This document shows positions 1-58,865 of a DNA stretch of 64,000 bases, piece after piece. The DNA lies in assembly GCF_007678455.1 (NCBI RefSeq), contig NZ_VEEP01000002.1, positions 407,197-471,196 of the forward strand, given 5' to 3'. The notes beneath the pieces were generated by a model. That model saw only the letters and a list, made by a program, of their open reading frames with translations, was not told the origin of the DNA and did not search any database. Made by a program: the position numbers and the translations under genes. Each line of letters begins with the position of its first letter. Within the stretch, counting starts at the first letter, position 1. The DNA comes from Cytobacillus oceanisediminis 2691. GTDB lineage: Bacteria > Bacillota > Bacilli > Bacillales > Cytobacillaceae.

Positions 1-134
1 GATTAATATAGCGAGTTTTTCATTTTTATAGCGACTTTCTAATTAATATAGCGAGTTTTTCATTTTTATAGCGACTTTCTAATTAATATAGCGAGTTTTT
101 CATTTTTATAGCGACTTTCTAATTAATATAGCGA
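1..134. repeat. 20-bp tandem repeat array (40-bp dimer)
   Basis: The core TATAGCGA recurs at 7, 27, 47, 67, 87, 107 and 127, an exact 20-bp period. Two half-units alternate, one continuing GTTTTTCAT and the other CTTTCTAATTA, so the higher-order unit is 40 bp. The 40-bp copies are essentially identical, which suggests recent expansion. The array runs to the left edge of the window, so its full length is unknown. It is AT-rich and non-coding. Confidence 0.95.
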
Positions 135-230
135 ATTGGAAATTCCCTGGTCTTTTTTTCAGTTAAAAATGCAGCGAGAACCTTTTCAGGCGTCCGCCGC
201 ACTTTTTCCAAATTCAACAGATCCGCATGT

Positions 231-455
231 CTATTCATATCTCATAGATTCAATCGGATCGAGTGCTTGATGCTTTATTGGCCGGCAGCAGTCCGAAGAC
301 GACGCCAATGATCATCGAGTACAGCTTGGCGCCGGTCACGACTGGCCATCCTTCAAAATACGAAATCAATGGTGCCCACCCCAGCCGAACAGGATGCCAA
401 GTACGCCGCCTATCAGTGTCAGTAAGTTGCTTTTCACTTCTTGTTTACGAGATTG
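231..455 (-). pseudogene. Remnant of a MacB/FtsX-type ABC permease C-terminus
   Basis: Read on the minus strand in shifting frames, this stretch gives LTLIGGVLGILFGWG, then LISYFEGWPVVTGAKLYS, then MIIGVVFGLLPANKA, then LDPIESMRYE and a stop at 231-233. Together these match the C-terminal end of MacB-like permeases: the last two membrane helices and the usual LDPIEALRYE ending. At least two frameshifts separate the pieces, one in the helix near 372 and one just before LDPIE near 265. The upstream part of the gene is missing beyond about 455. It cannot make a functional protein. No matching ATPase gene is present in the window. Confidence 0.8.
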
Positions 456-540
456 ATATATAAAAAGTTTCAATATCTTTAGAACTAAACCGGGAGATTA
501 GGGTTATCATGTTGTGGGTGTTATTGTCCTACAACAAAAA

Positions 541-582
541 AACGACAGACACCCCGATAGCATCGAGTTTGTCTGCCGTTTT
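541..582 (-). terminator. Rho-independent terminator of the 638-871 gene
   Basis: On the minus strand the arm AAACGGCAGAC pairs with GTCTGTCGTTT across a loop of about 20 nt (one G-U pair) and is followed by a run of T. It lies about 55 bp beyond the stop codon of the small membrane protein gene. Confidence 0.8.
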
Positions 583-637
583 AAACAACCTTAAATCAGT
601 GATTGTTCATACGAATTTTTCATTTTCGCTCCTAGCA

Positions 638-871
638 CTAACCTCCGAAACAACAACGCCATAACATTCGAATGAGGCAGTAGGCAAACAGGATGACCAC
701 GATTAACCCAATGATGCCTACAATGGTATTTATTGTACCAGCCAATGCGCCAAGTCCGGCTAGGACCGCAGCGACTAAACCAAAAGTAGACAACAGGATC
801 AATCCTACACCTACAAGGATTCCAAGAAACAAATCGAACACGCTGCATGCAGCATGAACACCGTTACTCAT
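638..871 (-). CDS. Small hydrophobic membrane protein, unknown function
   Basis: The product has 77 residues. The start ATG at 871 was chosen because GGAGGTGA stands 5 nt upstream; a longer open frame to 922 has no such site. Two glycine-rich membrane segments are visible (about residues 10-35 and 40-66). Four cysteines sit at the edges: one near residue 8, one in AYCLIR and a pair in RCCFGG at the C-terminus. No family is recognised. Size, glycine content and terminal cysteines resemble bacteriocin-like or small export-associated peptides, but no maturation gene is adjacent, so this is only a possibility. The gene is divergent from the bmrA-like exporter and ends in its own terminator. Confidence 0.7.
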   Translation of the reverse strand: MSNGVHAACSVFDLFLGILVGVGLILLSTFGLVAAVLAGLGALAGTINTIVGIIGLIVVILFAYCLIRMLWRCCFGG

Positions 872-1036
872 ATGCTTCACCTCCAAACTATTGTTCACCT
901 TTATGATATGCATGTACGTCATTGCTTGTTTATAAAAGGGGCGATTTTGTTACCTTTTTATGCAATGCACCCATATTTCCATCTATGCTGAAATTGGTTT
1001 ATGATGGAATCATCCAGAACGAATAGGAGAATTGTA

Positions 1037-2776
1037 ATGGAGAAAGAGAAACAGCCAACAAGTTTAAAGCCCTTCTTATCACTGATTCTATCCACGAATA
1101 TTCCAAAGGGGGCTCTTTTTACGGGGATGGCTGCCAGTTTCATCACGACTCTGGCGGGCCTGGCCGTTCCGCTTCTGACTAAGAACCTCGTCGATGGTTT
1201 TTCTGTTGAAGCAATCAGCCTTCCGCTGATTCTCGCCATTGGAGCTGCCTTTATCATTCAAGCACTGATCAGCGGGATTTCGATTTACCTGCTTAGTTAT
1301 GTTGGGCAGAAGGTCGTTGCCCGGCTGCGCGAACGGATGTGGTCGAAACTGATCCGGATGCCGGTGCGTTATTTTGACAAGCAGTCGAGCGGGGAAACGG
1401 TCAGCCGGATTGTCAATGACACCAGTATCGTCAAGGAGCTGATCACGAGCCATTTCCCGAATTTCGCCACGGGTATCATCTCGATCATCGGCGCTGTGGT
1501 GATCTTGTTTGTGATGGATTGGAAAATGACTTTGCTGATGCTCATTTCTGTTCCGCTGACGCTTGCCATCATGATCCCGCTGGGCAGGAAAATGGCGAAA
1601 ATCGCACGTGGCCTGCAGGATGAGACAGCTATTTTTACCGGTCATATCACCCAGACGCTCGGAGAAATTCGTTTAATGAAGGCTTCCACTGCCGAGAAAA
1701 TTGAAGAAGAGAACGGTTTTAACGGAATTGGCAAGCTGTTCAACTATGGCTTGAAGGAAGCGAGGATTTTTGCCTTGATTGGGCCAATCATGCAGCTGAT
1801 GATCATGGTCGTCATCGTCATCATCATCGCTTATGGCGGCATGCGCGTGGTGAACGGAACCATGTCGACAGGCGCACTCATCGCCTTCCTGCTTTACTTG
1901 TTCCAGATAATCATGCCAATCACCTCATTTGCGATGTTCTTCACGCAGCTGCAAAAAGCAAAGGGAGCGACTGAACGCATCATCGAGATCCTGGACCAGC
2001 CACTTGAGGAAAATGGTGAGGGTGTTGAAATGGATATCAGCAACAAGCAGATCACGATTGAACAGGTTTCTTTCGCTTATAGTGAAGAGGAATCAGTCAT
2101 TGAGAGAGTTTCGCTGGAAGCACAGCCCGGGCAGATGGTTGCCTTCGTAGGGCCGAGCGGCGGCGGAAAAACGACGATGTTTGGACTGATTGAGCGGTTT
2201 TATGAACCAACCCGGGGAGAAATCAGAATTGGCGATACGAACATCCAGCAGCTTTCACTGAATTCGTGGCGAAGCCAAATCGGCTATGTTTCACAGGAAA
2301 GTGCGATGATGGCCGGAACCATCCGCGAAAACCTTTATTACGGACTGGAAAATGGCGATAAAATCCCGGATGAAGTCCTTTGGGAAGTGGCAAAAATGGC
2401 GTATGCCGATCAGTTCATCGCAGATTTTCCGAAAGGGCTTGATACCGAAGTCGGCGAACGAGGCGTCAAACTGTCAGGTGGACAAAGACAGCGGATCGCG
2501 ATTGCCCGTGCCTTCCTTCGCGACCCAAAAATTCTGATGATGGACGAAGCGACAGCCAGTCTCGACAGCCAATCAGAAGGCATCGTCCAGCAGGCACTCA
2601 CCCGGCTTATGGAAGGCAGGACGACATTTGTCATCGCCCACAGACTTTCCACGATCGTCAATGCCGACAAGATCGTTTTTATCGAAAAAGGACGAGTGAC
2701 CGGTATGGGCACACATCAGGAATTGATCCAGTCGCATGATTTATATAGAGAGTTTGCCGAACAGCAGCTGGCATAA
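1037..2776 (+). CDS. bmrA: BmrA-type multidrug ABC exporter (half-transporter)
   Basis: A 579-residue fused permease-ATPase that acts as a homodimer in the membrane to expel lipophilic drugs. Six membrane helices occupy about residues 20-320. The nucleotide-binding domain follows, with Walker A GPSGGGKTT near 372, signature LSGGQRQR near 479, Walker B ILMMDEA near 500 and the H-loop in IAHRLST. The sequence tracks B. subtilis BmrA along its whole length, for example SGETVSRIVND, VKELIT and the C-terminal FAEQQL. The ATG at 1037 is preferred because AGGAG lies 7 nt upstream; an in-frame ATG at 1001 has none. The gene stands alone and ends in a strong terminator. Confidence 0.93.
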   Translation: MEKEKQPTSLKPFLSLILSTNIPKGALFTGMAASFITTLAGLAVPLLTKNLVDGFSVEAISLPLILAIGAAFIIQALISGISIYLLSYVGQKVVARLRERMWSKLIRMPVRYFDKQSSGETVSRIVNDTSIVKELITSHFPNFATGIISIIGAVVILFVMDWKMTLLMLISVPLTLAIMIPLGRKMAKIARGLQDETAIFTGHITQTLGEIRLMKASTAEKIEEENGFNGIGKLFNYGLKEARIFALIGPIMQLMIMVVIVIIIAYGGMRVVNGTMSTGALIAFLLYLFQIIMPITSFAMFFTQLQKAKGATERIIEILDQPLEENGEGVEMDISNKQITIEQVSFAYSEEESVIERVSLEAQPGQMVAFVGPSGGGKTTMFGLIERFYEPTRGEIRIGDTNIQQLSLNSWRSQIGYVSQESAMMAGTIRENLYYGLENGDKIPDEVLWEVAKMAYADQFIADFPKGLDTEVGERGVKLSGGQRQRIAIARAFLRDPKILMMDEATASLDSQSEGIVQQALTRLMEGRTTFVIAHRLSTIVNADKIVFIEKGRVTGMGTHQELIQSHDLYREFAEQQLA

Positions 2777-2780
2777 TATT

Positions 2781-2828
2781 AAAAGGAGTTTTCTTCCATA
2801 GTACTTTGGAAAGAAAACTCCTTTTTTC
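2781..2828 (+). terminator. Terminator after bmrA
   Basis: Arms AAAAGGAGTTTTCTT and AAGAAAACTCCTTTT enclose a short loop and are followed by T residues, a few bases after the bmrA stop. From here to 3078 there is about 250 bp of AT-rich sequence in which I see no gene. Confidence 0.9.
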
Positions 2829-3078
2829 ATCAGCTTCAAAACAAACATTTTTTTGCAGTTTGTATGAATTCCGAACCATATAGACTATCCTCATGAATGA
2901 ATCCATCTATCTTTTGCCAGATTGCTAAATCTTTTGAAAACAAACCTGTTCAAGATCCACTATTTCCTTTTTGCTATGAAACTCCTCGTATTCTAATCAA
3001 ACCGATCTTCTAAATGATCATCATACGACTGATTATAGTAGCCATCAAAAAAATATCTTAAATAATAAAATCTCTCAT

Positions 3079-4314
3079 CTATACGAAAATAACTTCCTCA
3101 GTAGCACGATAGTCCCTTGGTGACAGCCCAACATATTTTTTAAAAGTGCCGCTGAAGTAGTTGGGGGTGTTGTACCCTAGTTCTTCAGCGATGGCTTCTA
3201 TGGTGTGGTCGGTGTGGCGCAGCAGCCAGACAGCGCGCTGCATGCGGACGAAGGTGACATACTCGACGAAGTTCCGTCCGGTTTCTTGTTTGAAAATCCG
3301 GCTGAAATAGGGAACGCTGAGATTGATTTGATCGGCAACTTGCTTGATGGATAAGTCTTCTGTACAGAACCGGGAAATATACTCGGTGCACTTTGTAATT
3401 TGCACGTCATTCGTAATTTCCTCGAAGTAGCGAAGCTGAAGCCTTTCATATGGAGACGTCCGCCTGGCCTTGCATGCTTCCTTGTAGGAATGGTGCAGGA
3501 GCAGCGGTTCGCGGTAAACGGAACCAACACCAATATAAAGCTGGATACCGTATTCAGTTTCGAGTGACTCAATGGTCTCCAGGATACTGGCCTCTCCCTC
3601 TTTCCAATGCTTCATTGAGCCATATTCGGTCTGCAGTTGGAGCAGCATGAGCAAATGTTTTCGATAGGATAGGAAAGTGAGCTGTTGCCCTTCAAACTGC
3701 TTTTTAAAAGAATCCTGGATGACAATTGATGCCTGCCAGCCTTCTTCCCTCCGCTTAGCTGGACAGCGGACGAATCCCTGTATGAACAGGACTACGTTAG
3801 AAAAAGCTTCCCCCGGGAGGAAGAAACGCGATTGCAGCAGCTCCTCCTCAGTCTGCACATCACCTGATAAAAGCCTGCGCAAAAAGGCTTCTTTAAAAGG
3901 AAGGGTATTGCCTCCAACACCCGAATCCGCAACGATAGAATGAAATAATTCGTCGCTTTCTGTGAATCTATTGATTTCTGTTTCGATTTCATCGATCGCT
4001 CGCTTCAATGTGCGCAGAAAGACGCGCTGCTTAACTGATTTTACAAGAAGGTATGTCAGCTTGAACTCGATTGCCAGTGGAGAGGTGTGCAGCAAGGACG
4101 GGTCGAGCAGCGGAATGATCCGGCAGCCTTTATTCCGTTTGCGGAAACGGTGTATTTTTACCCAATCATGCCATTTGTTCACTTCAATAATGGCGATATG
4201 TAAATCATTCTCATGTTCTACAAGCTTGCAACTCTCCTTGCATTCTTCATGGATCCAGCCGCCAAGCTTCTGATATTCCCTCTCATCTTCAACGGAAAGC
4301 AATATACGATACAA
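3079..4314 (-). CDS. AraC-family regulator with degenerate receiver-like N-terminus
   Basis: About 411 residues from a TTG start at 4314, chosen because a strong AAAGGGGGTGG site lies just upstream; an in-frame ATG near 4341 is the alternative. The last 100 residues form an AraC double helix-turn-helix (SIKQVADQINLSVPYFSRIFKQ and TIEAIAEELGYN, ending in GLSPRDYR). The N-terminal 110 residues keep the outline of a YesN-type receiver (for example LLVKSVKQRVFLRTLKRA). However, the strand where the phosphorylated Asp belongs reads IAIIEVN, so phosphorylation there is unlikely. The middle region has no family I can name. It is divergent from the DUF485/symporter pair and probably controls it. No sensor kinase is adjacent. 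Confidence 0.85.
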   Translation of the reverse strand: MYRILLSVEDEREYQKLGGWIHEECKESCKLVEHENDLHIAIIEVNKWHDWVKIHRFRKRNKGCRIIPLLDPSLLHTSPLAIEFKLTYLLVKSVKQRVFLRTLKRAIDEIETEINRFTESDELFHSIVADSGVGGNTLPFKEAFLRRLLSGDVQTEEELLQSRFFLPGEAFSNVVLFIQGFVRCPAKRREEGWQASIVIQDSFKKQFEGQQLTFLSYRKHLLMLLQLQTEYGSMKHWKEGEASILETIESLETEYGIQLYIGVGSVYREPLLLHHSYKEACKARRTSPYERLQLRYFEEITNDVQITKCTEYISRFCTEDLSIKQVADQINLSVPYFSRIFKQETGRNFVEYVTFVRMQRAVWLLRHTDHTIEAIAEELGYNTPNYFSGTFKKYVGLSPRDYRATEEVIFV

Positions 4315-4512
4315 AGCCCCCACCCCCTTTCGAACATTCATATCAATGTATAAAAATAAAAATAATCTTAAATATTTGTATATTTCTGATAATTTATTGT
4401 AAGGCATTGGACAATTCTCTGTCGTAAAATCAATTTAATCATATCACGGCTTGCTTAAAGGAGGGAAATGATTACCAGCGGCAGGCAAATTTTTTTCAAG
4501 GGGGAGTCATAT

Positions 4513-4875
4513 TTGGCAGGGGATTATCGGGAGTATAATTATGTAGCGGCTGATACAATTGACGTTAAAGATTTAAAGCCGCTTGATCCGGAAACAAAGA
4601 AAATCATGAAAAGTGAATTCAGTACTGGCATTAAACTTACGCTCTTTTATTATGTTTTTATCCTTTCGATTCCTATTTTGAACTGGTATGCAGGGGATTT
4701 CATGTTCTCGCGCATGTGGGGCGGCATGACTTACAGCTGGTTCTTGACCTCGATCATCGCAATGGCGATGGCGTTTATCATTGCATTTATCCATACAAAT
4801 TTATATGAAAAGCGTCTGAAGCAGCATCAAGCACAGCAATCTGCATCTTCTGCTGACGGAAGGAGGATCGGCTGA
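4513..4875 (+). CDS. DUF485 membrane protein, partner of the solute symporter
   Basis: About 120 residues with two membrane helices (LTLFYYVFILSIPILNWY and SWFLTSIIAMAMAFIIAFIH). This is the DUF485 family, which includes E. coli YjcH beside ActP and B. subtilis YwcB beside YwcA. I prefer the TTG at 4513, with AGGGGGAG 6-7 nt upstream. The ATG at 4468 would add 15 residues (RQIFFKGES and so on), and its AAAGGAGG is only 3-4 nt away. The gene overlaps the symporter by one base (TGATG), implying coupled translation. Members are thought to assist the cognate Na+/organic-anion symporter, but their exact role is unknown. Confidence 0.85.
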   Translation: MAGDYREYNYVAADTIDVKDLKPLDPETKKIMKSEFSTGIKLTLFYYVFILSIPILNWYAGDFMFSRMWGGMTYSWFLTSIIAMAMAFIIAFIHTNLYEKRLKQHQAQQSASSADGRRIG

Positions 4876-6440
4876 TGTCCACTTTCCTTGAACCAAAATT
4901 CCTGTTAACCATGATTTTGATGGGTACTATTGTCTACATTACCTACTTGACCAAAAGAAGCGCGACGGCTTCCGACTACTTCGTCGGCGGGCGCAGCTTC
5001 GGCTGGTTCACGAACGGCTCGGCTATTGGCGGCGACTATTTGAGCGCAGCCACCTTCCTTGGAATTGCCGGCCTCACCTATCAGTTGGGCTACGATGGCG
5101 CGTATTATGCATTCTGCTTCTCAATCGGGCTGACATTGCTCGCGATTTTCGTCGCTGGACCGCTTCGCCGCTTTGGTGCCTATACTGTCGCCGACTTTCT
5201 GGCCTATCGCTTCCACAGCCGCCGGGCGCGTCTTGCAGCCGTGGCTGTTGTCCTGGCGATATCCGGTTTTTATGCAGCCCCTCAGCTGCTTGGTGCAGCC
5301 CAGATCCTGAGCATGTTCTTTGGGACTAGCTACGAATTCGGAATCATCTTCACCTGCTCTGTAATGATTTTCTATGTAGGAATCGGAGGCATGAAGGGAA
5401 CCACGCTTAACCAGGCGCTTGAATTATGGATTCGCCTTGGAGCGTTCCTCCTTATGGTCGGTGCGGCCATCTGGGGCGGGCTCCATTACCAAGAAATCCT
5501 TGCATCTATTAATGAGTTCAAAGGGACGATCACGGGTACAGCAGGCTTCACGACTGACGGAAAAGATATCCCGTTCGATGGCTCCGTCTGGACTGGAACA
5601 GGCAACTACTTCCCGTCCTTCTGGCAGACCATTTCGATGACAATCGGGCTTTCCCTTGGAACAATCGGCCTGCCGCACATCCTTTTGCGCTTCTATACAA
5701 ACCCAAGCGCGAAAGCAGCTCGCAGATCTGCCCTGATGGCCATCGGGATTGCAAGCGTATTCTTCCTGTTCGCTGTTTACCTTGGAGTAGTTGGACGCTC
5801 AATCTTCCTGACTGGTGAAGCGGATCCGGCTGTCATGAAAGACCTGATTGCCGGCGGAAACAACATGGTCGTTCCGTCGACAGCACAGGCACTTGGCGGA
5901 GAATGGCTGCTTGGCCTTGTCATCGCCGGAGCTTTCGCAGCTGTCTTCTCGAATCTTTCCGGGCTGTTCATCGCAAGCTCCGGTGCCCTGGCCCATGACT
6001 TGTACGCAACTTTCTTCCGTAAAAATATTACTGAAAAAGAGCGTGTCATCGCTGGAAAAGTCTCAATCATTGTCCTTGGTGTATTGTACGGAGCGCTTGG
6101 CCTGATGGTAAAAGAAGCCTCCATCGGCCACCTCGTCGCCCTCGCCTTCACGGTGGCGGCAAGCACCTTCACACCAATCTTTATCCTTGGCATCTGGTGG
6201 AGGGGAATGACGGAAAAAGGAGCAATTGCCGGCCTTGTCATTGGCCTTGCCGCATCCATGTATATGATTTTCTTCAAGACCACCCTGCCGGAATTCCTGC
6301 AATTCAACGTACCGGGAATCATCACAGTCCCAATCGGATTCCTGTCCGTGTACATTGTCTCGAAGCTTGATCGCAAGGTACCATCTGATGTAAATGAATT
6401 TATGAAGCAAGTCCATTCTAAAGAATCTGAGGCAGCATAA
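4875..6440 (+). CDS. Sodium:solute (acetate-type) symporter, SSS family
   Basis: 521 residues and about 13 membrane helices of the LeuT-fold SSS family, closest in layout to ActP/YwcA cation-monocarboxylate symporters. Visible family features are the N-terminal ATASDYFVGGRSFGWFTNGSAIGGDYLSAATFLG region (Na+ and substrate sites) and SLGTIGLPHILLRFYT in the middle. The ATG at 4875 overlaps the stop of the DUF485 gene, with GGAGG upstream. Its pairing with DUF485 supports an acetate- or pyruvate-like monocarboxylate as substrate, but the sequence alone does not fix it. The operon ends in a strong terminator and is likely controlled by the divergent AraC regulator. Confidence 0.9.
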   Translation: MSTFLEPKFLLTMILMGTIVYITYLTKRSATASDYFVGGRSFGWFTNGSAIGGDYLSAATFLGIAGLTYQLGYDGAYYAFCFSIGLTLLAIFVAGPLRRFGAYTVADFLAYRFHSRRARLAAVAVVLAISGFYAAPQLLGAAQILSMFFGTSYEFGIIFTCSVMIFYVGIGGMKGTTLNQALELWIRLGAFLLMVGAAIWGGLHYQEILASINEFKGTITGTAGFTTDGKDIPFDGSVWTGTGNYFPSFWQTISMTIGLSLGTIGLPHILLRFYTNPSAKAARRSALMAIGIASVFFLFAVYLGVVGRSIFLTGEADPAVMKDLIAGGNNMVVPSTAQALGGEWLLGLVIAGAFAAVFSNLSGLFIASSGALAHDLYATFFRKNITEKERVIAGKVSIIVLGVLYGALGLMVKEASIGHLVALAFTVAASTFTPIFILGIWWRGMTEKGAIAGLVIGLAASMYMIFFKTTLPEFLQFNVPGIITVPIGFLSVYIVSKLDRKVPSDVNEFMKQVHSKESEAA

Positions 6441-6448
6441 GCATTTCC

Positions 6449-6482
6449 AGGACCCCGGGAGATTTCCCGGGGTCCTTTCTTC
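6449..6482 (+). terminator. Terminator after the symporter gene
   Basis: Near-perfect GC-rich hairpin AGGACCCCGGGA-gatt-TCCCGGGGTCCT followed by TTCTTCTTTTT. Confidence 0.95.
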
Positions 6483-10084: not shown

Positions 10085-10453
10085 ATGGTCGCAACTCAAG
10101 CAATCTTAGCATGGACATTCATCTCCGAATGCCCAATCCCAAACGATGTGGATGAACTTTTAGTGGAAGGGGAGACAGCAGTCGCCGCCTATAAAACCAT
10201 CCGCGACAGTGCAATTTTCACCAACAAGCGATTGATCGTCCGGGACGCTCAGGGACTTACCGGCAAAAAAGTCGAAATCTACTCCCTGCCTTACTCTTCC
10301 ATCAACATGTGGTCCACCGAAAACGCCGGCAGCCTGTTTGATGTGAACGCCGAAGTGGAACTATGGACCAGGGCAGGCCATATCAAGGTCAACCTGAAAA
10401 AAGGCGTCGACATCAGGAAGTTCGATAAGCTGATTGCCGAGGCGCTTCTGTAA
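10085..10453 (+). CDS. Bacterial PH-domain protein (YozO-like)
   Basis: 122 residues from ATG 10085, preceded by AGGAGG. One bacterial pleckstrin-homology fold (bPH_1) fills the protein: the strand/turn pattern GETAVAAYKTIRDSAIFTNKRLIVRD, then KKVEIYSLPYSSINMWS, closed by a C-terminal helix FDKLIAEALL. Such small cytosolic proteins assemble into rings in known structures, but their role is not established. A terminator follows directly. Confidence 0.85.
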   Translation: MVATQAILAWTFISECPIPNDVDELLVEGETAVAAYKTIRDSAIFTNKRLIVRDAQGLTGKKVEIYSLPYSSINMWSTENAGSLFDVNAEVELWTRAGHIKVNLKKGVDIRKFDKLIAEALL

Positions 10454-10503: not shown

Positions 10504-10564
10504 GCCTGAATAATAAAATCTTCTTTTTTATTCCCTCAGGAAAATCCTATTGAGCCTTCTTTTT

Positions 10565-10700
10565 CCTTCTTCGCCTTTCGGTTTGTCCGATACAGCCCTT
10601 CTTTCGGACACTTTTCCCTTCTTCTCCTTCCGTTTTGTCCGATACAGCCCTTCTAACGTACACTTTTTCCTTCTTCTCCTTCCTTTTTGTCCGATAGCAA
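10565..10700. repeat. 52-bp tandem repeat array, three copies
   Basis: TTTGTCC marks the units at 10582, 10634 and 10686, an exact 52-bp period. Each is preceded by a pyrimidine-rich stretch (CCTTCTTCTCCTTCC). The first unit holds an inverted repeat, TGTCCGA and TTCGGACA, about 12 bp apart; this has decayed in the second unit. The array occupies most of the 339-bp gap between the PH-domain gene and the DUF1659 gene. An open frame on the minus strand crosses it only because the repeat lacks stops. Confidence 0.93.
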
Positions 10701-10792
10701 TCAATCTCTCTACTAGATTCCCGAAAAAATTTTCTCACCCTGTCCTTTTCTCTTCCCCATCTGTATATAGAAGGTGAAAGGAGGTGAGTAAG

Positions 10793-11008
10793 ATGGCAAT
10801 GGCGATGTTGAAGGATTCGAATATGAGGCTTGTGTTCGAGGCTGGTCTTGATGAAAAGGGCGAACCGATCTTCAAGGGCAAGACGTACCGCTATGTGAGA
10901 AAGGAAGCGACTCCTGATCAGGTCCAGCAAGCGGCTGTGGCTCTTGGCGGCCTGAGCGCAAACTTGTTAAGCTCTGTGGAGCGTAACGACAGTTTCGATA
11001 TCATCTAA
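10793..11008 (+). CDS. DUF1659 small protein
   Basis: 71 residues from ATG 10793, 7 nt after AAAGGAGGTG (an in-frame GTG at 10784 falls inside the binding site). The sequence (LKDSNMRLVFEAGLDEKGEPIFKGKTYRYVRKEATPDQVQQAAVALGGL, in short pieces) is typical of DUF1659: a short beta region then a helix. It is normally found, as here, with DUF2922 and YvrJ genes in Bacillaceae. The function is unknown. It is probably co-transcribed with the DUF2922 gene 36 bp downstream. Confidence 0.88.
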   Translation: MAMAMLKDSNMRLVFEAGLDEKGEPIFKGKTYRYVRKEATPDQVQQAAVALGGLSANLLSSVERNDSFDII

Positions 11009-11044
11009 TCTGGCATTCTATCAATCTAATAGGAGGTGAAATAC

Positions 11045-11263
11045 ATGGCTAAAACTCTTGAGTTGCAATTCGCTACTGATCTTGGCAAATTCGCCAAGCT
11101 GACGGTTGATAACCCTACAGAGCCTGTCGATCCAGCGGCAGTCAAGCTGGCAATGGAGCAGATCATCGCTTCCAACGCGTTCCTGCTAACGAATGGCACC
11201 CTTGTCGCCGTTGACAGTGCTCGTATCATCGAACGCAATGTAACAGACTATGAACTGATCTAA
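11045..11263 (+). CDS. DUF2922 small protein
   Basis: 72 residues from ATG 11045 with AGGAGGTG upstream. The protein has the DUF2922 pattern: MAKTLELQFATDLGKFAKLTVDNP, a proline-rich turn (TEPVDPAAV), a helix, then a C-terminal strand NVTDYELI. Its size and fold outline resemble the neighbouring DUF1659 product, so the two may be distant relatives or partners. The function is unknown. A terminator follows and separates it from yvrJ. Confidence 0.88.
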   Translation: MAKTLELQFATDLGKFAKLTVDNPTEPVDPAAVKLAMEQIIASNAFLLTNGTLVAVDSARIIERNVTDYELI

Positions 11264-18929: not shown

Positions 18930-19026
18930 GATGCATCGTGACTAAGGAATCACTTGTCAGTCAGAACCTCTTCCGTTTTTAGGACATAAACGGAGCACAG
19001 TTATACTTCCCTGTGCTCTTTTTTGC
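18930..19026 (+). ncRNA. Possible small RNA ending in an intrinsic terminator
   Basis: Both flanking genes run on the minus strand, yet 18993-19026 is a plus-strand terminator: GAGCACAG, 10-nt loop, CTGTGCTC, then six T. Just before it are two further hairpins, GTGA-N8-TCAC (about 18948-18963) and CCGTTT-N9-AAACGG (about 18973-18993). No open frame with a binding site precedes it. A weak TATTAT near 18926 could be a -10. The 5' end is a guess, and the hairpin may merely block read-through. Confidence 0.35.
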
Positions 19027-19394
19027 CTAAAGGTACCCTTATGCGCTCTTCTCTCCCTCATAAGGGTGTCTTTCTTGGCTAAAGGTACCCTTATGCTGCT
19101 CTTTTCTTTCCCATTAGGGTGTCTTTCTTGGCTAAAGGTACCCTTATGCTGCTTTTCTCTCTTTCATAAGGGTGTCTTTCTTGGCTAAAGATACCCTTAT
19201 GCTGCTTTTCTCTCTTTCATAAGGGTGTCTTTCTTGACTAAAGATACCCTTATGCTGTACTTTTCTCTCTTATAAGGGTGTCTCTCTTGACTAAAGGTAC
19301 CCTTATGTTGAATTTCCCCCTCTCATAAGGGTGTCTCTCTTGACTAAAGGTACCCTTATGTCGCCATTTTCTCTCTCATAAGGGTATCTTTCCC
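19027..19394. repeat. 53-bp tandem repeat array, seven copies with inverted arms
   Basis: Units begin (CTAAAGGTACCC or CTAAAGATACCC) at 19027, 19079, 19132, 19185, 19238, 19291 and 19344, spaced 52, 53, 53, 53, 53 and 53 bp. Each unit carries arms ACCCTTATG (positions 9-17) and CATAAGGGT (34-42), with pyrimidine-rich spacers. The arms thus alternate about every 25-28 bp along the array. It fills the 616-bp gap between the TSUP gene and the aldo/keto reductase gene together with the hairpins at either end. Confidence 0.96.
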
Positions 19395-19400
19395 CAACAA

Positions 19401-19433
19401 AAACAGGGACAGCATAATGCCCGTCCCTGTTAG
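19401..19433 (-). terminator. Terminator of the aldo/keto reductase gene
   Basis: AACAGGGACG and GTCCCTGTTT pair across a loop of about 10 nt on the minus strand, followed by TTGTTGGGG; 9 bp past the stop codon. Confidence 0.8.
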
Positions 19434-21363: not shown

Positions 21364-21470
21364 GGGAAATCCTCCATTCATGTAAAAAAGAACCATCTTC
21401 CGCCTTAATTAGGAAAGAATTCAACAAAAACCTGTCATTCTCCTTTTCACATGGAGTGGTTTTCCTGGTT

Positions 21471-21566
21471 ATTCCGCGAGTTTAGTTACGAATCCCGCGA
21501 AACTAGCTGTCAATTCCGCGAAAATCTACATGAATTCCGCGAATTCACACCGGAATTCCGCGAACT
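21471..21566. repeat. 21-bp tandem repeat array, five copies
   Basis: CCGCGA recurs at 21474, 21495, 21516, 21537 and 21558, an exact 21-bp period, in the consensus AATTCCGCGAA. The spacers between cores are almost unrelated in sequence but constant in length. It lies in the 352-bp gap between the GNAT start and the terminator of the CNNM gene. Confidence 0.95.
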
Positions 21567-39878: not shown

Positions 39879-40430
39879 TTGGTGACCTCTTTTTTCATTT
39901 TCAGGCGTTTTAGGGCACCAATACGCCTTATTGTTGATGCTATTATCCATTTACTGGCTTTCCAGTGCTCCAATGCGCCTTATTGGTGACCCCATTATCC
40001 ATTTACTGGATTTCCGGTGCTCCAAGACGCTTTATTGATAATCTAATTATCCATATACTGGATTTCCGGTGCTTCAATACACCTTATTGATGACCTCATT
40101 ATCCATTTACTGGATTTACAGTGCTCCAATATACCCTTTTGGTGACCTCTTTATCCATTTACTGGATTTACCGTGCTCCAATACATCCTATTGGTGACCA
40201 CTTTATCCATTTACTGGATTTAGCGTGCTCCAATACATCCTATTGGTGACCCCTTTATCCATTTACTGGATTTGCCGTGCTCCATTACACTCTATTGGTG
40301 ACCCCTTTATCCATTTACTGGATTTGCTGTGCTCCAATACACTCTATTGGTGACCCCTTTATCCATTTACTGGATTTGCCGTGCTCCAATACGCTCTATT
40401 GGTGACCTCATTTTCCACTTAATGGATTTA
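39879..40430. repeat. 52-bp tandem repeat array, eleven units with two palindromes each
   Basis: TTGGTGAC or a close variant marks units at 39879, 39931, 39983, 40035, 40087, 40139, 40191, 40243, 40295, 40347 and 40399. All ten intervals are exactly 52 bp, although the units differ at many positions. Each unit has two inverted repeats: ATCCA-tttac-TGGAT, and CCAATA-N5-TATTGG spanning the junction with the next unit. Their centres are 26 bp apart. The array fills the 645-bp gap between two convergent genes. There are no CRISPR-like unique spacers and no coding signal. Confidence 0.97.
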
Positions 40431-40480
40431 CAAAAAGAGGGACGGTTCAAAAAAAAAAATCGTCCACCTCTCCACTTTTG

Positions 40481-43641: not shown

Positions 43642-44027
43642 CGTGATGTCCTCGAGCTGCTCTGCTCCTGCCGGAAGCCTCTTTCCGGAGCATTCACGAT
43701 TTGGTCTTGTCCCCATGAAGTCCCTTGTTCCTGCTGTTCACTTCTGTAGTGATCGTCATCATCGTCTTCATAACCTTCATCATCATGCTCTTCATACTCA
43801 TCATCGTCATCATGATCTCCGTAATAACGATCGCCCTCATCATCGCTGTATTCGTTTTCCTCATAGCCTTCTTCATTAAATGCTGAAAAATTTTCACGAA
43901 GCCAATCCTTTTCCGGAACTGAATTTTCATTGCCTGCAGCCTTTTCGTTATTCATCACCAGGCCGCCAAACGTCAGAGCCGTAATTGTACTGACAGAGAT
44001 CACTGACCACTTTACTTTTTTATTCAT
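43638..44027 (-). CDS. Exported Asp/Glu-rich protein, unknown
   Basis: 129 residues from ATG 44027 (GGAGG upstream). A signal or anchor helix (WSVISVSTITALTFGGLVM, about 7-25) precedes an extremely acidic region (about 51-93) with Asp runs, His and Tyr (GDHDDDDEYEEHDDEG, DDDDDHY). The tail is Gln/Ser/Arg-rich. There is no FMN-attachment motif. Composition suggests binding of metal ions outside the membrane. It is first in an operon with ApbE and the ferric-reductase-like protein. The coding frame is confirmed by tight overlap with apbE. No family is recognised. Confidence 0.75.
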   Translation of the reverse strand: MNKKVKWSVISVSTITALTFGGLVMNNEKAAGNENSVPEKDWLRENFSAFNEEGYEENEYSDDEGDRYYGDHDDDDEYEEHDDEGYEDDDDDHYRSEQQEQGTSWGQDQIVNAPERGFRQEQSSSRTSR

Positions 44028-52668: not shown

Positions 52669-52792
52669 AAAAAGGTTTCCTCCATTGCAGATTATTAAGT
52701 TGACCCGCGAAGGCGCCTTTCACGTTTGGCCAACATGAATGCAATTATGAAGGATACCTGATCGCTTGAGAAGTACGCACTTTAAAGTTCCG

Positions 52793-52861
52793 TAGGCACC
52801 CTCAGGTGATATAGGCACCAAAAAGTGCCCTATACTACTTATAGAAATGTAAGGTTATAAT
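52793..52861 (+). promoter_or_regulatory. Divergent control region of the HxlR/MFS pair
   Basis: TAGGCACC occurs twice (52793-52800 and 52812-52819). The second copy forms an inverted pair with GTGCCCTAT (52825-52833), giving ATAGGCAC-N7-GTGCCCTAT. TATAAT (52856-52861) is the likely -10 of the HxlR gene, 40 bp before its TTG. The repeats are candidate HxlR binding sites for control of both directions. Confidence 0.55.
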
Positions 52862-52900
52862 GACACTACAAATAATCAGAAAGACAAGGAGGGTGTTTTT

Positions 52901-53242
52901 TTGAAGAAATATAATATACCAGTCGAAGCAGCCCTCGAGGTAATCGGCGGGAAATGGAAAGTCGTCATTCTTTGCCATTTGATCGAAGGCAAGAAACGGA
53001 CAAGTGAATTAAAAAAACTCATGCCCGGCATCACTCAAAAAATGCTCACACAGCAATTGCGTGAGCTGGAAGAAGATAATGTCATTTTACGGGAGGTCTA
53101 TAACCAGGTCCCTCCTAAAGTCGAATATTCATTGACAGACTATGGCTGGTCCTTGAAAGGGATTCTCGATTCACTATGCGCCTGGGGAGAACAGCATATT
53201 GAGAAAAATCAATCTGCCGAACCGGAAACAAAGGAATTTTAG
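52901..53242 (+). CDS. HxlR-family regulator (YtcD-like)
   Basis: 113 residues from TTG 52901 (AAGGAGGG upstream). HxlR winged-helix motifs are complete: IGGKWKVVILCHLIEGKKRTSELKKLMPGITQKMLTQQLREL (pieces) and VEYSLTDYGWSLKGILDSLCAWG. One cysteine is in the helix-turn-helix entry (VILCHL) and one near the end (SLCAWG). HxlR relatives sense aldehydes, disulfides or quinones through cysteines, so it may be redox-responsive. It divergently controls the MFS gene, like YtcD. Confidence 0.92.
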   Translation: MKKYNIPVEAALEVIGGKWKVVILCHLIEGKKRTSELKKLMPGITQKMLTQQLRELEEDNVILREVYNQVPPKVEYSLTDYGWSLKGILDSLCAWGEQHIEKNQSAEPETKEF

Positions 53243-53272
53243 AGAAACAGCGGAGAGCTCTGCTGTTTCTCT
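53241..53272. terminator. Bidirectional terminator between convergent genes
   Basis: AGAGAAACAGC and GCTGTTTCTCT with a short loop, between the HxlR stop and the stop of the GNAT gene at 53273; T-rich on the plus strand and A/T-rich on the other. Confidence 0.87.
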
Positions 53273-53689
53273 TTATTTCAATTTGAAATAGATGATCTCC
53301 GGATCGCCTTCATCCAAATTCTCGACGATACCACTCTCAACAAACCCATTCGCTTCAAATACCTTCTGCATACTGAGATTAGAACGATTGGCAGATGAAA
53401 AAACTTTTTCAGTAGGCGAAGTTCGAACCAATTCATTCAACAGTTGGCTTGCATATCCCTTACGTCTTTTTCCAGGTGACACAATCACCAAGGATATAAA
53501 CGTACATTCAAAAAAGTTCGTATCATAAATAGCAAATCCGGCAGCTTCGTTATTTTCTTTTACAAGAATACAATGTTTCTGCTTAATTGCATTCTCAATC
53601 ATGTTCCGTCTGCTGGTGTTACCGATCATTTCACTGTCGATTTGGACAATCGCCTGTAAATCTGGCATTTGTGCTGCAACAATATTCAT
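53273..53689 (-). CDS. GNAT acetyltransferase
   Basis: 138 residues from ATG 53689 (AAAAGGGG upstream), overlapping the stop of the upstream broken GNAT by ATGA. The acetyl-CoA site appears as SLVIVSPGKRRKGYASQLLNEL, followed by SSANRSNLSMQKVFEANGFVESG. The small size and short N-terminus are typical of single-domain GNATs. The substrate is unknown. Its translation was probably coupled to the now interrupted gene. Confidence 0.88.
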   Translation of the reverse strand: MNIVAAQMPDLQAIVQIDSEMIGNTSRRNMIENAIKQKHCILVKENNEAAGFAIYDTNFFECTFISLVIVSPGKRRKGYASQLLNELVRTSPTEKVFSSANRSNLSMQKVFEANGFVESGIVENLDEGDPEIIYFKLK

Positions 53690-54126
53690 AACGATTCCCC
53701 TTTTAATAGGTCCTTTTTTAAATAGAAATGCTTAAATTCCCTTCCCACATTGTCCAATGTCCCATAAACTTCATAACCATTATTTTGATAAAAATCCAGC
53801 GCCTGAAAGCTCAGGGTGTCCACCTTAATAAAATCACATTGACTCTCTAACGCGGCTTGTTCAATCTCTGCTAACAATTTCGTTCCATATCCTAACCCTC
53901 GAATGTCTTCATCAATCATAAGCGTATGGATCTCCAGCCAGTTTCAGCAGATTTCTCCCAGAATGCCTCCACGGATATTCTCATTCTCATCTAGTAGAAT
54001 GAGGTTCACTTCTTGGTATCTTCCTCTTAAATCTTCAGGAAAATGGCTTAAGTTATATTCATACAGTTTGTGATTAATCTGGTTTTTGTAGCTTTCGTTC
54101 AACTCTTTGGTAATGCGGTAGTTCAT
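53686..54126 (-). pseudogene. GNAT acetyltransferase interrupted by an in-frame TGA
   Basis: One frame of 146 codons with a single stop: the first 60 codons end GGILGEIC, then TGA (53944-53946), then NWLEIHTLMIDEDIRGLGYGTKLLAEIE (in pieces) to a stop at 53686-53688. Related GNATs read GEICWNWLEIH, so the TGA replaces a Trp codon (TGG). GGGGAGG precedes ATG 54126, and the rest of the fold is intact. It is a recent nonsense mutation or a sequencing error. An ATG in the second part (MIDEDIRGLG) has no binding site. Confidence 0.88.
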
Positions 54127-54338
54127 TTTACTTCCTCCCCAAACGTTTTCATTTAAAGCTTAACATACGTTTCGTTTATTTTCCCTTTGTCCCATGAGTA
54201 AAAAGACTCAAAAAGTGGTAATGCGGTGGTATTTACTTTACATATTTTTCCTATCCCTCTATTATGTAAAAAGTTCCATCTCGGAAAAAGCAATCATGGT
54301 AAAAAAGCAATCTTTGAAACTATGGAGGTATTTTAAAA

Positions 54339-55226
54339 ATGAAACTTAAAACGTTGGCCGTTTCCTTACTGACGATGATCACAATGGCAGGCTGCAGCTC
54401 CGAGCCCACCGCTGAAAAGAAAGAATCACTTAAGGTTGAACCAGTGGAAGTAACGGAAGAAGACTATCCTGACAAAATCGATGAACTGAACACCAGCCTG
54501 GATGAAGGGTTCAGAAATTTAAATGCGGTGGCTGAAGAAGACTCTGGATCCAAAGAACGCGAAAAACGGCTGATTGAACAAGTTGATAACATCGAAAAGA
54601 CTGTAAACGGTTATAAAGCCATTATCGCCCCTGAAAGATACAAGGAGGTTCATGATCAATATCTATCGGCCATGGAATTTTATACCGAGGGCATTGATAC
54701 AATTCGCAAAGCCATTGAAAAGAAGGATCAGAAGCTTTGGCAGAAAGGAAATGAGCCCATCAAGGAAGGCTTTAATGTATGGATTGAGGCACACTCCAAG
54801 CTCGCGGATTCCGTTCCGGTCGGTGACGGCACGATCACAGCAGCAGACCTGAAACAGCTGGATGCATTGGCTGGCATTGACCGTGATTCAGTGCAGGAGA
54901 ATATCTCCAAAGACGGAAAAGAATTAGTCGGAAAATGGGGCCTTGCCGGCTCACCCCCTTCCATCGTTCTGAATGCAGATGGCAGCTATGAGGGATATGC
55001 AAACGGTACTTACCCTTCAAAGGATCATATGTCAAAAGGAACCTGGAAATACGATTCCGATAAAGGAGCATTGTACTTCACTCATGATGAAGCCTATGCA
55101 GACGGAAAACCACTAACCGACTTCCGCAAATCGATGATCATGGGAATCCAATCCTTCAAGGATGGAAACATGAGGTTGCTGGATGTGGAATCGTTGAATG
55201 AATTTCTTTATGAAAAGATGGAGTAA
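54339..55226 (+). CDS. Lipoprotein with DUF3994-like domain
   Basis: 295 residues. The signal peptide has a lipobox (TMITMAGCSS) with Cys at 19, so it is lipid-anchored outside the membrane. Residues 40-190 are a long helical region with coiled-coil character (EKTVNGYKAIIAPERYKEVHDQY). The C-terminal 95 residues form a beta-rich domain starting VGKWGLAGSPPSIVLNADGSYEGYANGTYP, the DUF3994/lipocalin-like pattern. AAGGAG-like sequence (GGAGG) precedes ATG 54339. The function is unknown. A strong terminator follows. Confidence 0.85.
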   Translation: MKLKTLAVSLLTMITMAGCSSEPTAEKKESLKVEPVEVTEEDYPDKIDELNTSLDEGFRNLNAVAEEDSGSKEREKRLIEQVDNIEKTVNGYKAIIAPERYKEVHDQYLSAMEFYTEGIDTIRKAIEKKDQKLWQKGNEPIKEGFNVWIEAHSKLADSVPVGDGTITAADLKQLDALAGIDRDSVQENISKDGKELVGKWGLAGSPPSIVLNADGSYEGYANGTYPSKDHMSKGTWKYDSDKGALYFTHDEAYADGKPLTDFRKSMIMGIQSFKDGNMRLLDVESLNEFLYEKME

Positions 55227-55229
55227 ATA

Positions 55230-55269
55230 AAAGGGAGGGAGTTCTTGTGTTGAGAACTCCCTCCCTTTG
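55230..55269. terminator. Terminator after the lipoprotein gene
   Basis: AAAGGGAGGGAGTTCT and AGAACTCCCTCCCTTT, a 16-bp perfect stem with a short loop, lying between convergent genes. Confidence 0.95.
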
Positions 55270-55334
55270 CTAGCTATGGGCACACACTTCAAGTATGGAT
55301 CAGATTAGTGATCATCTTTAAACCGTCCCCACCG

Positions 55335-56989
<1,655 letters not shown>

Positions 56990-57030
56990 AAACGCAAACC
57001 CCTATCTCATTCGTGACTGTCTTTTACTAT

Positions 57031-57060
57031 TAGACTGAGATAGAAAGGCAAATCTTATTC
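57031..57060 (-). promoter_or_regulatory. Sigma-G-like promoter of glcU-gdh
   Basis: Minus strand GAATA (57060-57056), 18-bp spacer, CAGTCTA (57037-57031), about 40 bp before the glcU start. Forespore sigma-G promoters have GNATR-N18-CATNNTA. Five of the seven -10 bases fit. Confidence 0.6.
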
Positions 57061-57138
57061 CGCAAGAATACACCCCAAAATAAAATTGCCGTGACTAACA
57101 CAAAATAAGTTTAAATCAAATTCAGGAGACAAAAACCG

Positions 57139-58086
57139 ATGCTCGTATACTCAGCAAATAATAAAACAGTTACCAAAAAAGATGAGCTTTCCCTTCCCGA
57201 CTCCAACGAAGAGATCGCATGGATTCATTTTCATTCATCGAATGCCGATCAATTTGAACCGTTTATCAATCAATTGAACATCCATCCTTTAGCGTTGAAA
57301 GGACTGCGCGAATTCAGTGATATTCCAAAGATTGATGTTTTTAAAAATGAGGCGATCATTTCGTTAATTGCAATCCAGCCGGATTACTCTCGAGTGAAAA
57401 TCACGATATTGGTTGGCCATAACTATGTGGTATCAAAGGCTGAAAAGGACCTTTATCTCGCAAAAAATTTGGAGAAACCTTTTATTGAAAATCCACAGCA
57501 GATGTCCCATGTGGGAATGGTTCTTTTTCACATACTCGATGAAACAATTGCCCAGGATTTAGAAATGATTGATCAGATATCAGATGAAATCCAAAGTTTG
57601 GAGAAGAGGGTTTTTAAAGATCCCTTTGAGAACAAAATTGCCAGAAGTGTATACCGGTGGAAAGCAACCCTGCATGAATTAAGACAAACGATCGAGGCAC
57701 AAGAGGATGTAATGGAGACGATTAGTTCCGACAAATTCCCGTTCACGAATGAGGAATCAGGCTATTTCATTAAAAGCCTGAACAATAATTATGCTCGGAT
57801 CGTTAGCGCTCTCGACACCTTCAAGGAAAGTTTAAACAGCATTTTCAATTTACAAATGACGCTCAAAGCCGACCATTCCAATACAATCATGAAGACGCTC
57901 ACTCTCGTAAGTGTCATATTTTTGCCTATGACGTTCCTGGCCGGTTTATATGGAATGAACTTTGAAATCATTCCCGAATTGAAGTGGAAGTTCGGCTATC
58001 TTTACGCACTGATCCTCATGCTTGTGACGGGGTTATCCATTGCCTTATACTTCCGAAAAAAAGGCTGGTGGGGGAAAGGAGAGTAA
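57139..58086 (+). CDS. corA: CorA family magnesium transporter
   Basis: 315 residues. A soluble funnel domain (about 1-245) ends in a long stalk helix. Two membrane helices follow with the CorA selectivity motif YGMNFEIIPELKW (about 281-293) between them. The C-terminus is basic (RKKGWWGKGE). It forms a pentameric Mg2+ (or Co2+/Zn2+) channel. GGAGA precedes ATG 57139. B. subtilis YfjQ and YqxL are relatives. No Mg riboswitch is seen in the 150 bp upstream. Confidence 0.92.
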   Translation: MLVYSANNKTVTKKDELSLPDSNEEIAWIHFHSSNADQFEPFINQLNIHPLALKGLREFSDIPKIDVFKNEAIISLIAIQPDYSRVKITILVGHNYVVSKAEKDLYLAKNLEKPFIENPQQMSHVGMVLFHILDETIAQDLEMIDQISDEIQSLEKRVFKDPFENKIARSVYRWKATLHELRQTIEAQEDVMETISSDKFPFTNEESGYFIKSLNNNYARIVSALDTFKESLNSIFNLQMTLKADHSNTIMKTLTLVSVIFLPMTFLAGLYGMNFEIIPELKWKFGYLYALILMLVTGLSIALYFRKKGWWGKGE

Positions 58087-58201
58087 TAGTCCAATCTTGA
58101 GCTATGAAGTTCTAGAACCATCGGATGCCAATTTTCATTATTCTTGCAAATCTTGTGTTACAATGCTTGAAAGGAATGTTCCATAAAGGAGGACGGGTGA
58201 A

Positions 58202-58606
58202 ATGGCGTTTTTTATTTCCCTTATTTTCATTGTGATTTCCGTGTTCATTTCCCTTATTTTTAAAAATGAGCTCGAGCGGATGTTTCTGAAAGGAAAAGAG
58301 TTTTTCCCCTTTCACATATGCAATGTCCTAATCACCTTGATGGTCGCATTCGCCTCCCAGGCTGTTATGACAATCTATGTTTTCGAACACCAATTCCATA
58401 TCATCCGAGATGTGCTGATCCTGATCGCCATCATTTTGCCTGTTTATATCTCTGGACATTTAGCCTTTGAAAAATACAAATTCGTCTTCCGCAAATTCTC
58501 CGCTTCCGATAACGGAAAAGTGCTGGTACTGAACGAAAAGTACTTAAAAAAGAAAAAACGGTTCAAAAACCTTGAACACTATAATGCTATTTCCAAGGAA
58601 AAGTAA
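58202..58606 (+). CDS. Membrane protein with basic tail, unknown
   Basis: 134 residues, AAGGAGG before ATG 58202. Three membrane segments (about 2-20, 42-62 and 70-88) are followed by a strongly basic cytoplasmic tail (LNEKYLKKKKRFKNLEHY). No family is recognised. It follows corA by 115 bp on the same strand, possibly co-transcribed. Confidence 0.7.
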   Translation: MAFFISLIFIVISVFISLIFKNELERMFLKGKEFFPFHICNVLITLMVAFASQAVMTIYVFEHQFHIIRDVLILIAIILPVYISGHLAFEKYKFVFRKFSASDNGKVLVLNEKYLKKKKRFKNLEHYNAISKEK

Positions 58607-58620
58607 ATAATCGCCTGCCA

Positions 58621-58663
58621 AAAACGAAAATGCCAGCAACATTAGCCGGCATTTTCGTTTTTT
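58621..58663. terminator. Terminator after the 58202 gene
   Basis: AAAACGAAAATGCC and GGCATTTTCGTTTT enclose a 13-nt loop; T-rich to the right. It abuts a 21-bp repeat array. Confidence 0.92.
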
Positions 58664-58773
58664 CGATCACTTTTTAAATTAATTTGGCGAATTTTTAATT
58701 ATTTCGACCACATTTTGGGTTTATTCGACCACATTTTGATTTATTTCGACCACATTTTCGAATAATTCGACCA
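58662..58773. repeat. 21-bp tandem repeat array
   Basis: TTCGACCA-type cores place CGA at 58705, 58726, 58747 and 58768, an exact 21-bp period, in the consensus ATTCGACCACATTTT. Two degenerate cores (58664 and 58688) precede them. The array sits between the convergent 58202 gene and the response regulator gene. Confidence 0.9.
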
Positions 58774-58865
58774 GGTGAGGAATATTCACCAAATTGTCAG
58801 CTTTTATCAACATCAAAATATACAAAAGGACATGCAGTCCTTCCGCATGTCCCTGTTTGTTTTCA

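Follow-up and report, generated by a model that had tools for sequence, protein, structure and literature searches.

Reports of tandem repeats in Bacillus that hold their length while their sequence is free go back to 2020-2021, and no function is known for them. Subirana and Messeguer (2021; PMC8161180) described 4029 tandem repeats from 176 Bacillus genomes, with two main classes of 20-21 nt (781) and 51-53 nt (1886); length is constant while sequence varies, a species holds several families, and the repeats are partly conserved between strains. Such repeats also occur in other Firmicutes. Their tables cover B. selenatarsenatis, with 30 arrays of 20-21 nt and 49 of 51-53 nt, and two close relatives, and list a single tandem repeat for B. 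subtilis 168. A nucleoid protein or small RNAs were proposed as explanations, and 20-21 nt was equated with two turns. The present study concerns six tandem arrays with units of 20/21 or 52/53 bp in a stretch of 64,000 nucleotides from Cytobacillus oceanisediminis 2691 (contig NZ_VEEP01000002.1, positions 407,197 to 471,196), hereafter the window, and their relatives in the same genome and across the order. Both constant-length classes are already known, and the 52/53-bp arrays are known constant-length tandem repeats of Bacillaceae. The original prediction, which was made from the window alone, thus erred in finding no described element family to which they belong; its idea of a nucleoid protein and its two-turn remark are likewise in print, the latter for 20-21 nt. 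The 52/53-bp arrays further follow a stem-loop plan that covaries between families, keep a protected unit length and have an orientation that is nearly fixed to replication.

Fold, unit length and orientation of the 52/53-bp arrays

The source genome is a 4.9-Mb draft in 477 contigs, from which a sample of 800,794 b (the window, C221:1-400000 and C111:400001-736794) was searched in 20-kb stretches with Tandem Repeats Finder (TRF). Among the 40 intergenic arrays with a score of at least 100, 24 have a period of 52/53 and 12 a period of 20/21 (36/40 together). The remaining four comprise one called at 19, which is really a 20/40 array, and three at 26, 31 and 122. No array scored above 58 in three dinucleotide shuffles of the sample, and the genome-wide excess expected at the two period classes is thus borne out. 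It is common to genus members: in 400 kb each of G031 (same species, single contig) and G032 (86% identity in a test gene), at a score of at least 80 and with coding arrays included, 14/34 and 13/38 arrays, respectively, belong to the 52/53 class and 15/34 and 16/38 to the 20/21 class. Inside called open reading frames (ORFs), 14 arrays of the source sample score at least 100: five of 52 bp, one of 20 bp and eight with periods that are multiples of 3. The ORFs over the five 52-bp arrays are probably spurious and the arrays intergenic. The 52/53-bp arrays comprise several sequence families in the source genome, are spread along the chromosome and occupy ~1.8% of the sample (14,103 of 800,794 b).

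In most 52-bp families, the unit is polar and consists of a 27-nt stem-loop (10-7-10: a 10-bp stem with a 7-nt loop) and a 25-nt linker, mostly purine-rich on the leading-sense strand, which is the lagging-strand template. When set in register, 65 of 75 consensus units carry xGTC (64) or GTTC (1) at the base of the stem-loop. The plan exists in two versions, TGTC..GACA and GGTC..GCCC. The inner six stem pairs vary widely between families yet remain complementary. Among 22 representatives less than 80% identical, 94 of 132 variable-stem cells pair, against a mean of 49.4 (standard deviation 6.0, maximum 74) in 2000 permutations that preserve the register and ignore relatedness. Sliding the partner strand by 1-3 bases lowers the pairing total from 169 to 44-60 of 220, a control that is favoured by construction because the stem register was chosen by pairing. 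Variation between single units (n=298) follows the same fold: the change rate per base is 0.034 in stems and 0.121 in loop and linker (3.6x lower in stems), and seven double stem changes were found against 2.6 expected, six of which restore a pair. At paired sites of the leading-sense strand, G-T mismatches outnumber A-C mismatches (43 vs 27), though unpaired rates predict slightly fewer G-T; this excess is a weak sign that the leading-sense strand folds.

The length of the unit is protected in the 52/53 class. We aligned 71 arrays (source sample, extra source loci, G031, G032, L050, L051, L055 and L209) to their own repeated consensus and counted 41 indels (1-2 nt) against 2572 substitutions, or 62.7 substitutions per indel. 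The corresponding figures are 79-150 for coding DNA and 8.8 and 7.9 (source-G031) or 7.2 and 8.1 (source-G032) for non-array intergenic alignments. The constraint is much weaker in the 20/21 class, in which 19 arrays gave 287 substitutions and 23 indels (12.5 per indel). The expectation that units hardly ever differ in length therefore holds for the 52/53 arrays and applies weakly to the 20/21 arrays, given a background of 7-9.

Copy number changes mostly by whole units. Fifteen of 21 source arrays were comparable with their G031 counterparts, the other six lying outside the compared stretch, and equality of length was judged from the modal 11-nt offset produced by flank trimming. Five arrays are equal in length, five differ by exact units (-1, +1, +3, +3 and +4), four depart from a whole-unit difference by 1-9 nt in either direction (the ends of one were set by hand) and one 26-bp array differs by 77 nt. 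Free variation of unit length between strains, set beforehand as a refutation test, was not seen, since the 10/15 arrays that differ in length do so mostly by whole units.

The orientation of the arrays is nearly fixed to replication and does not follow the flanking genes. Each cluster of motif matches was counted as one locus, expected on the plus strand before and on the minus strand after the chromosome midpoint, and loci within 0.1 Mb of the midpoint were dropped (for TTTTGACAGGTTTG, one at 2.33 Mb in G031 and one at 2.45 Mb in G032, both plus). GC skew agrees with an origin near coordinate 1 in G031 (positive at 0.70-1.10 and 2.30-2.38 Mb, negative at 3.10-3.42 Mb), in G032 (positive at 0.58-0.98 Mb) and in G016 (mean +0.056 at 0.50-0.58 Mb, with one of four 20-kb pieces slightly negative); such an origin was assumed for G009. 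G015 and G018 were left out of the scoring; in G018, loci at 4.61 and 4.65 Mb are on the plus strand after a run of minus, and the putative origin lies near 4.5 Mb. In these four single-contig genomes, the core GGTCAC-N15-GTGCCC lies on the leading strand at 39/39 loci (G031 9/9, G032 18/18, G009 8/8, G016 4/4). This tally drops seven single matches that are not 27 nt long or lack a stem (two in G031, one in G032, two in G009 and two in G016), three of which are on the expected strand. The motif TTTTGACAGGTTTG follows at 15/16 loci and TGACGGACAGAAAT at 17/19, and one rule places 80/86 loci of all four motifs, the fourth being that of the 53-bp family, on the leading strand. In the genome G205, from another family, loci within a contig share a strand among the matches listed (two on C76, three on C176 and three on C478); in G185, two loci at a distance of 294 kb also lie on one strand.

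The base composition of the arrays reports the same polarity. The purine-rich strand is the leading strand in 64/68 arrays of the source genome, G031 and G032, and the leading-strand purine content is 0.61 in arrays and 0.52 in other intergenic DNA; the leading strand is purine-poor in the other 4/68, most clearly at source C111 448 kb and G031 3.32 Mb. The purine bias may be mutational, whereas point mutation of an inverted array could not easily produce the GGTC/GCCC motif in this orientation. Because 69-88% of the coding length in the sampled stretches is on the leading strand, gene direction alone would yield about that polarity figure. However, the purine-rich strand is also the leading strand in 8/8 arrays whose called neighbours are both lagging-strand genes (two of the arrays are orthologous).

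Gene context was compared between the 68 arrays, which are partly orthologous, and 897 intergenic gaps of at least 100 bp. Convergent genes flank 24 of the arrays and 122 of the gaps, co-directional leading genes 30 and 460, lagging genes 8 and 112, and divergent genes 6 and 203. Promoter-only regions are therefore poor in arrays. Gene end and array are separated by a terminator-like hairpin in 47/66 cases, a modest excess over control gene ends (242/440). These gene calls are ORFs of 100 aa or more and are crude.

No consistent polarity rule was found across five motifs of the 20/21 arrays, with leading:lagging counts of 4:17 for TATAGCGA, 5:3 for TTGGCGAA, 7:7 for TATTGGCG, 7:2 for TCGACCA and 0:2 for CCGCGAA. 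They probably form an element class of their own, under looser rules.

Arrays of the window and their relatives

The window holds the following arrays.

Array 1, 1..134, plus strand: 20-bp units with a 40-bp higher-order unit and TATAGCGA each 20 bp; truncated at the window edge.
Array 2, 10541..10713, minus strand: 52-bp units, ~3.3 copies, TGTC..GACA stem-loop type, degenerate.
Array 3, 19017..19402, minus strand: 53-bp units, ~7.1 copies, with arms CATAAGGGT..ACCCTTATG.
Array 4, 21470..21566, plus strand: 21-bp units, with CCGCGA five times at exactly 21-bp spacing.
Array 5, 39880..40440, minus strand: 52-bp units, ~10.6 copies, GGTC..GCCC stem-loop type, between convergent gene ends.
Array 6, 58662..58773, plus strand: 21-bp units (42-bp higher-order), with the motif TCGACCA and one indel.

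All six arrays named in the original prediction are present. Five are picked up by TRF at a score of at least 40: 2-134 (20/40), 10559-10696 (52), 19017-19392 (53), 39918-40431 (52) and 58662-58773 (21/42). TRF makes no call at that score for array 4 (21471-21566), which is established by its CCGCGA spacing (positions 21474, 21495, 21516, 21537 and 21558) and by a periodicity score of 37.4 that exceeds all 300 of 300 dinucleotide shuffles (maximum 18.2). The further statement that the arrays have different sequences is half right: arrays 2 and 5 share one stem-loop plan and the 53-bp family of array 3 recurs at many places in the genome. Array 2 is called convergent yet is followed by small ORFs at 10784-11008 and 11036-11263; these and the upstream gene, which ends at 10453, are all on the plus strand and thus lagging, and the purine-rich strand of the array, the minus strand, is likewise leading. 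By eye, array 3 is flanked on both sides by terminator-like hairpins. No Rfam match reaches gathering scores within the window, and below them only weak, chance-like matches occur, over arrays 3 and 5. Distant-mode searches matched neither array 5 to plasmids nor array 3 to phages.

At the place of array 1, G031 carries a 9.2 x 40-bp array, and its counterparts of arrays 2, 3 and 5 have ~4.7, ~11.2 and ~11.8 units, respectively; array 3 reaches 16.4 units in L050. The array 3 sequence matches within the genus only, in 14/31 genomes. At its site in 15 genus loci (L137-L151), the array is kept in L137-L140, the orthologous intergenic region of L141-L143, L145 and L146 measures 136-145 bp and has no array, and the other six loci lack either the array or synteny. 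The array 5 sequence extends beyond the genus within the family, with matches in 18/121 genomes and 5/25 genera, and six pieces (L243-L248) from three genomes of other genera carry 52- or 53-bp arrays. The core GGTCAC-N15-GTGCCC matches 51/397 genomes of the order, many with single hits, and several families hold it in tandem at intervals of 50-53 bp. Pairs of TATAGCGA 20 bp apart (TATAGCGA-N12-TATAGCGA) occur in 18/151 family genomes, all in 1/25 genera, namely this genus. Smaller samples of 80 kb yielded one array of period 53 and one of period 37 in G016, another genus member, and neither the 52/53 nor the 20/21 class in four genomes from other families of the order. Eleven comparisons between the source genome and G032 revealed no clean insertion junction, 5/11 having no flank pair.

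Several side observations accompany these searches. For one window protein, the closest named records (87-92% protein identity) are from Mesobacillus selenatarsenatis, M. subterraneus, M. boroniphilus and Bacillus sp. ISL strains. L050 (JAGGQZ010000005.1) is titled Chryseobacterium sp. ISL-80, and this title looks wrong, as the locus is Mesobacillus-like (94% protein identity) and carries a 53-bp array by the same gene. Runs of N seem to lie inside or beside two 53-bp arrays of the source genome (L007 and L044), where identity is seen at every lag; draft assemblies that gap at arrays may make array counts from drafts too low. Also in the source genome, the units of the arrays at L024:15296-15439 and L025:15690-15750 measure 26 bp (78-bp higher order) or ~25-26 bp, half of 52, and these arrays are possibly half-unit relatives of the 52-bp class. 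An ATC-rich 3/15/24-bp repeat at 43752-43817 of the window overlaps called ORFs, unlike the intergenic arrays.

Explanations for a constant unit without a constant sequence

What keeps the unit length of these arrays constant while the sequence is free to change? A unit that keeps its length but not its sequence, stems that covary, change by whole units and polarity together point towards a process that encounters one given strand of the DNA. As the best account, with a probability of roughly 0.37, we propose that single-strand stem-loops are handled at the replication fork, with a ruler of ~52 nt and in-register slippage. On this account, the units would be exposed as hairpins on one strand at the fork, and it is in this single-strand form that they would matter or arise. 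Unit length would be set by a single-strand ruler of ~52 nt associated with the fork, such as an SSB tetramer or the interval over which a polymerase slips past one folded unit. Arrays would expand, shrink and be seeded in the fork direction by in-register slippage or template switching, and they may persist through a gain to the host (priming, restart or insulation at gene ends) or through amplification alone. We infer both the ruler and any host benefit from these patterns. The wider claim that the 52/53-bp arrays form a chromosome-wide, replication-strand-specific Bacillales element, made of strings of single-strand stem-loops with a ~52-nt unit measured by a fork protein, is rather unlikely and is put forward tentatively. 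If it is true, a single fork-coupled process would underlie constant length, variable sequence, covarying stems and polarity alike, and would resolve why size is kept while sequence is not.

A number of observations weigh against the fork-coupled account. Ten of the 75 consensus units do not fit the 10-7-10 plan and were excluded from the covariation test, the GGTC/GCCC type retains a recurring T-C stem mismatch that a pure hairpin does not need, and the 53-bp family (array 3) has a different inner layout, with arms of ~10 and spacers of ~17 and ~16. The predicted folding energy is nearly equal between strands, being lower for the leading strand in 41/64 cases with RNA parameters and in 38/64 with DNA parameters. 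Because detection depends on periodicity, it is biased against arrays that contain indels. Polarity is least strict in the 53-bp family (AAGGGYACCATTCA, leading strand at 9/12 loci), and the 6/86 reversed loci (G016 4.01 and 1.36 Mb, G009 1.11 and 2.93 Mb, G031 2.58 and 3.74 Mb) include two whole arrays, at 1.1127 Mb in G009 and 3.7366 Mb in G031. Two loci 25 kb apart on one contig of G279, from another family, are on opposite strands. Furthermore, source and G031 arrays are partly orthologous, and several counts are therefore not independent. As a separate observation, these two reversed arrays and the one at source C111 448 kb could mark local inversions or tolerated exceptions.

Protected length across many sequences could also serve a double-stranded DNA scaffold, in which one or more nucleoid proteins polymerise along the arrays and need constant spacing, as suggested by the original prediction and by Subirana and Messeguer. 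The spread of arrays along the chromosome, their enrichment between convergent genes and their scarcity between divergent genes are consistent with such a scaffold. However, it has no need for stem covariation or replication polarity, the stem types share little sequence and their inner geometry differs, and we regard it as unlikely. The specific proposal that a helical position is the repeated item does not fit the source genome, where the CATAAGGG family is fixed at 53 and all other families at 52. Relative to a single 10.5-bp helical repeat, either length drifts in phase by ~17 degrees per unit, or half a turn over ten units. A fixed 52 and a fixed 53 in one genome, together with an inner arm spacing of 17/35 in one type and of ~26/27 in the other, disfavour helical phasing; in addition, the 20-bp family corresponds to 1.9 turns, and in G424 (same order) the spacing is 50-51 bp. 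One array of G291, from another family, mixes 52 and 53 with a mean of 52.6, near five turns; it favours the scaffold and counts against dismissing helical phasing. An RNA element, in which transcribed hairpin strings act as a sponge, a small RNA or a 3' end stabiliser, would account for stem-loops with covariation and for the G-T excess on the leading-sense strand, and most genes are co-oriented with replication. RNA-seq reads from B. coagulans arrays, described in the accessible part of PMC8625621, suit this explanation and speak against the fork-coupled account. Nevertheless, polarity tracks replication rather than flanking genes in all arrays between lagging genes, terminator-like hairpins often precede the array, and the window has no Rfam match at gathering scores, which makes an RNA element decidedly unlikely.

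The same-strand polarity on both replichores would be expected of polar signals that a DNA translocase or a recombination enzyme reads, such as KOPS/SRS (FtsK/SpoIIIE) or Chi. The octamer GAGAAGGG, which we take to be the Bacillus SRS, is ~8x denser in arrays than outside, with a leading:lagging ratio of 5:0, and its inner part, AGAAGGG, is found 27 to 1 on the leading strand. Only these five octamers occur in 29,433 b of array, however, so that most units have none; AGCGG, presumably Chi, is rarer in arrays than outside (0.37 vs 1.02 per kb), and stem-loops of variable sequence are unlike a short fixed signal. Such signals are a highly improbable basis for the arrays. A similarly small chance is given to REP/BIME-like palindromes moved by a Y1 (RAYT-type) transposase on the lagging-strand template and then amplified. 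The arrays are indeed extragenic palindromes, single-strand transposons insert with strand bias, and Y1_Tnp genes are present in 18/21 genus genomes; the accessible part of PMC3116915 also describes some ordered P. fluorescens REP arrays that are oppositely oriented on the two chromosome sides. Against this origin, G006, G014 and G015 have no Y1_Tnp match yet have GGTCAC..GTGCCC hits or arrays, a constant GTAG/CGTC tag was not seen by eye next to 22 representative stems, with CGTC only inside some stems, and the inspected empty sites show no clean insertion junction. G031 has seven Y1_Tnp matches, six of them alike in score, and the source genome one, perhaps because an IS200-type element has spread recently in one of the strains.

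Polarity that ignores gene direction, covarying stems and protected length turn a function hitherto called unknown into testable alternatives. If the arrays are fork-coupled, their behaviour would differ by orientation and unit length, whereas that of a scaffold or an RNA would not, or would follow transcription. The GGTCAC..GTGCCC core, which several families of the order carry in tandem every 50-53 bp, offers a handle for picking a tractable host.

Comparison with known systems

CRISPR arrays share the regular spacing of a palindromic part, but the unique spacers of CRISPR are not found here, since the linker repeats too and the whole 52/53-bp unit recurs. Intrastrand triplex motifs are likewise intergenic, structure-forming and linked to instability and are a different element: the E. 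coli motif in the accessible part of PMC4666352 has no strand-orientation bias, and no 52-bp arrays are mentioned there. Helically phased binding arrays keep whole-turn spacing over the array; the source genome differs, with a fixed 52/53 bp and with 20 bp in TATAGCGA arrays, if one helical repeat is assumed. The accessible parts of PMC3733652 and PMC3116915 present REP, BIME and REPIN elements as small extragenic palindromes that sometimes form ordered tandem arrays, which is a further likeness. Unlike them, the 52/53-bp arrays show no GTAG/CGTC tag, do not require a Y1 transposase gene and keep one unit length over many sequences.

The closest match is with the repeats of Subirana and Messeguer. 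The accessible portion of a 2019 survey (PMC6749651) does not contain '52 nt', and no mention of the replication polarity of such arrays was found in the literature searched, which included the main text and tables of PMC8161180, supplements aside; nor does that main text give the 10-7-10-25 plan with covariation, the indel/substitution measurement or the gene-end context. As in their repeats, lengths of 51-53 or 20-21 nt dominate the non-coding arrays (36/40 here), each genome has several families, array length varies between strains (10/15 against G031) and short signals often occur together with their reverse in one repeat, here the stem arms. Beyond that description, the present arrays add replication polarity, a covarying stem-loop plan, a measured rarity of indels and a context of gene ends.

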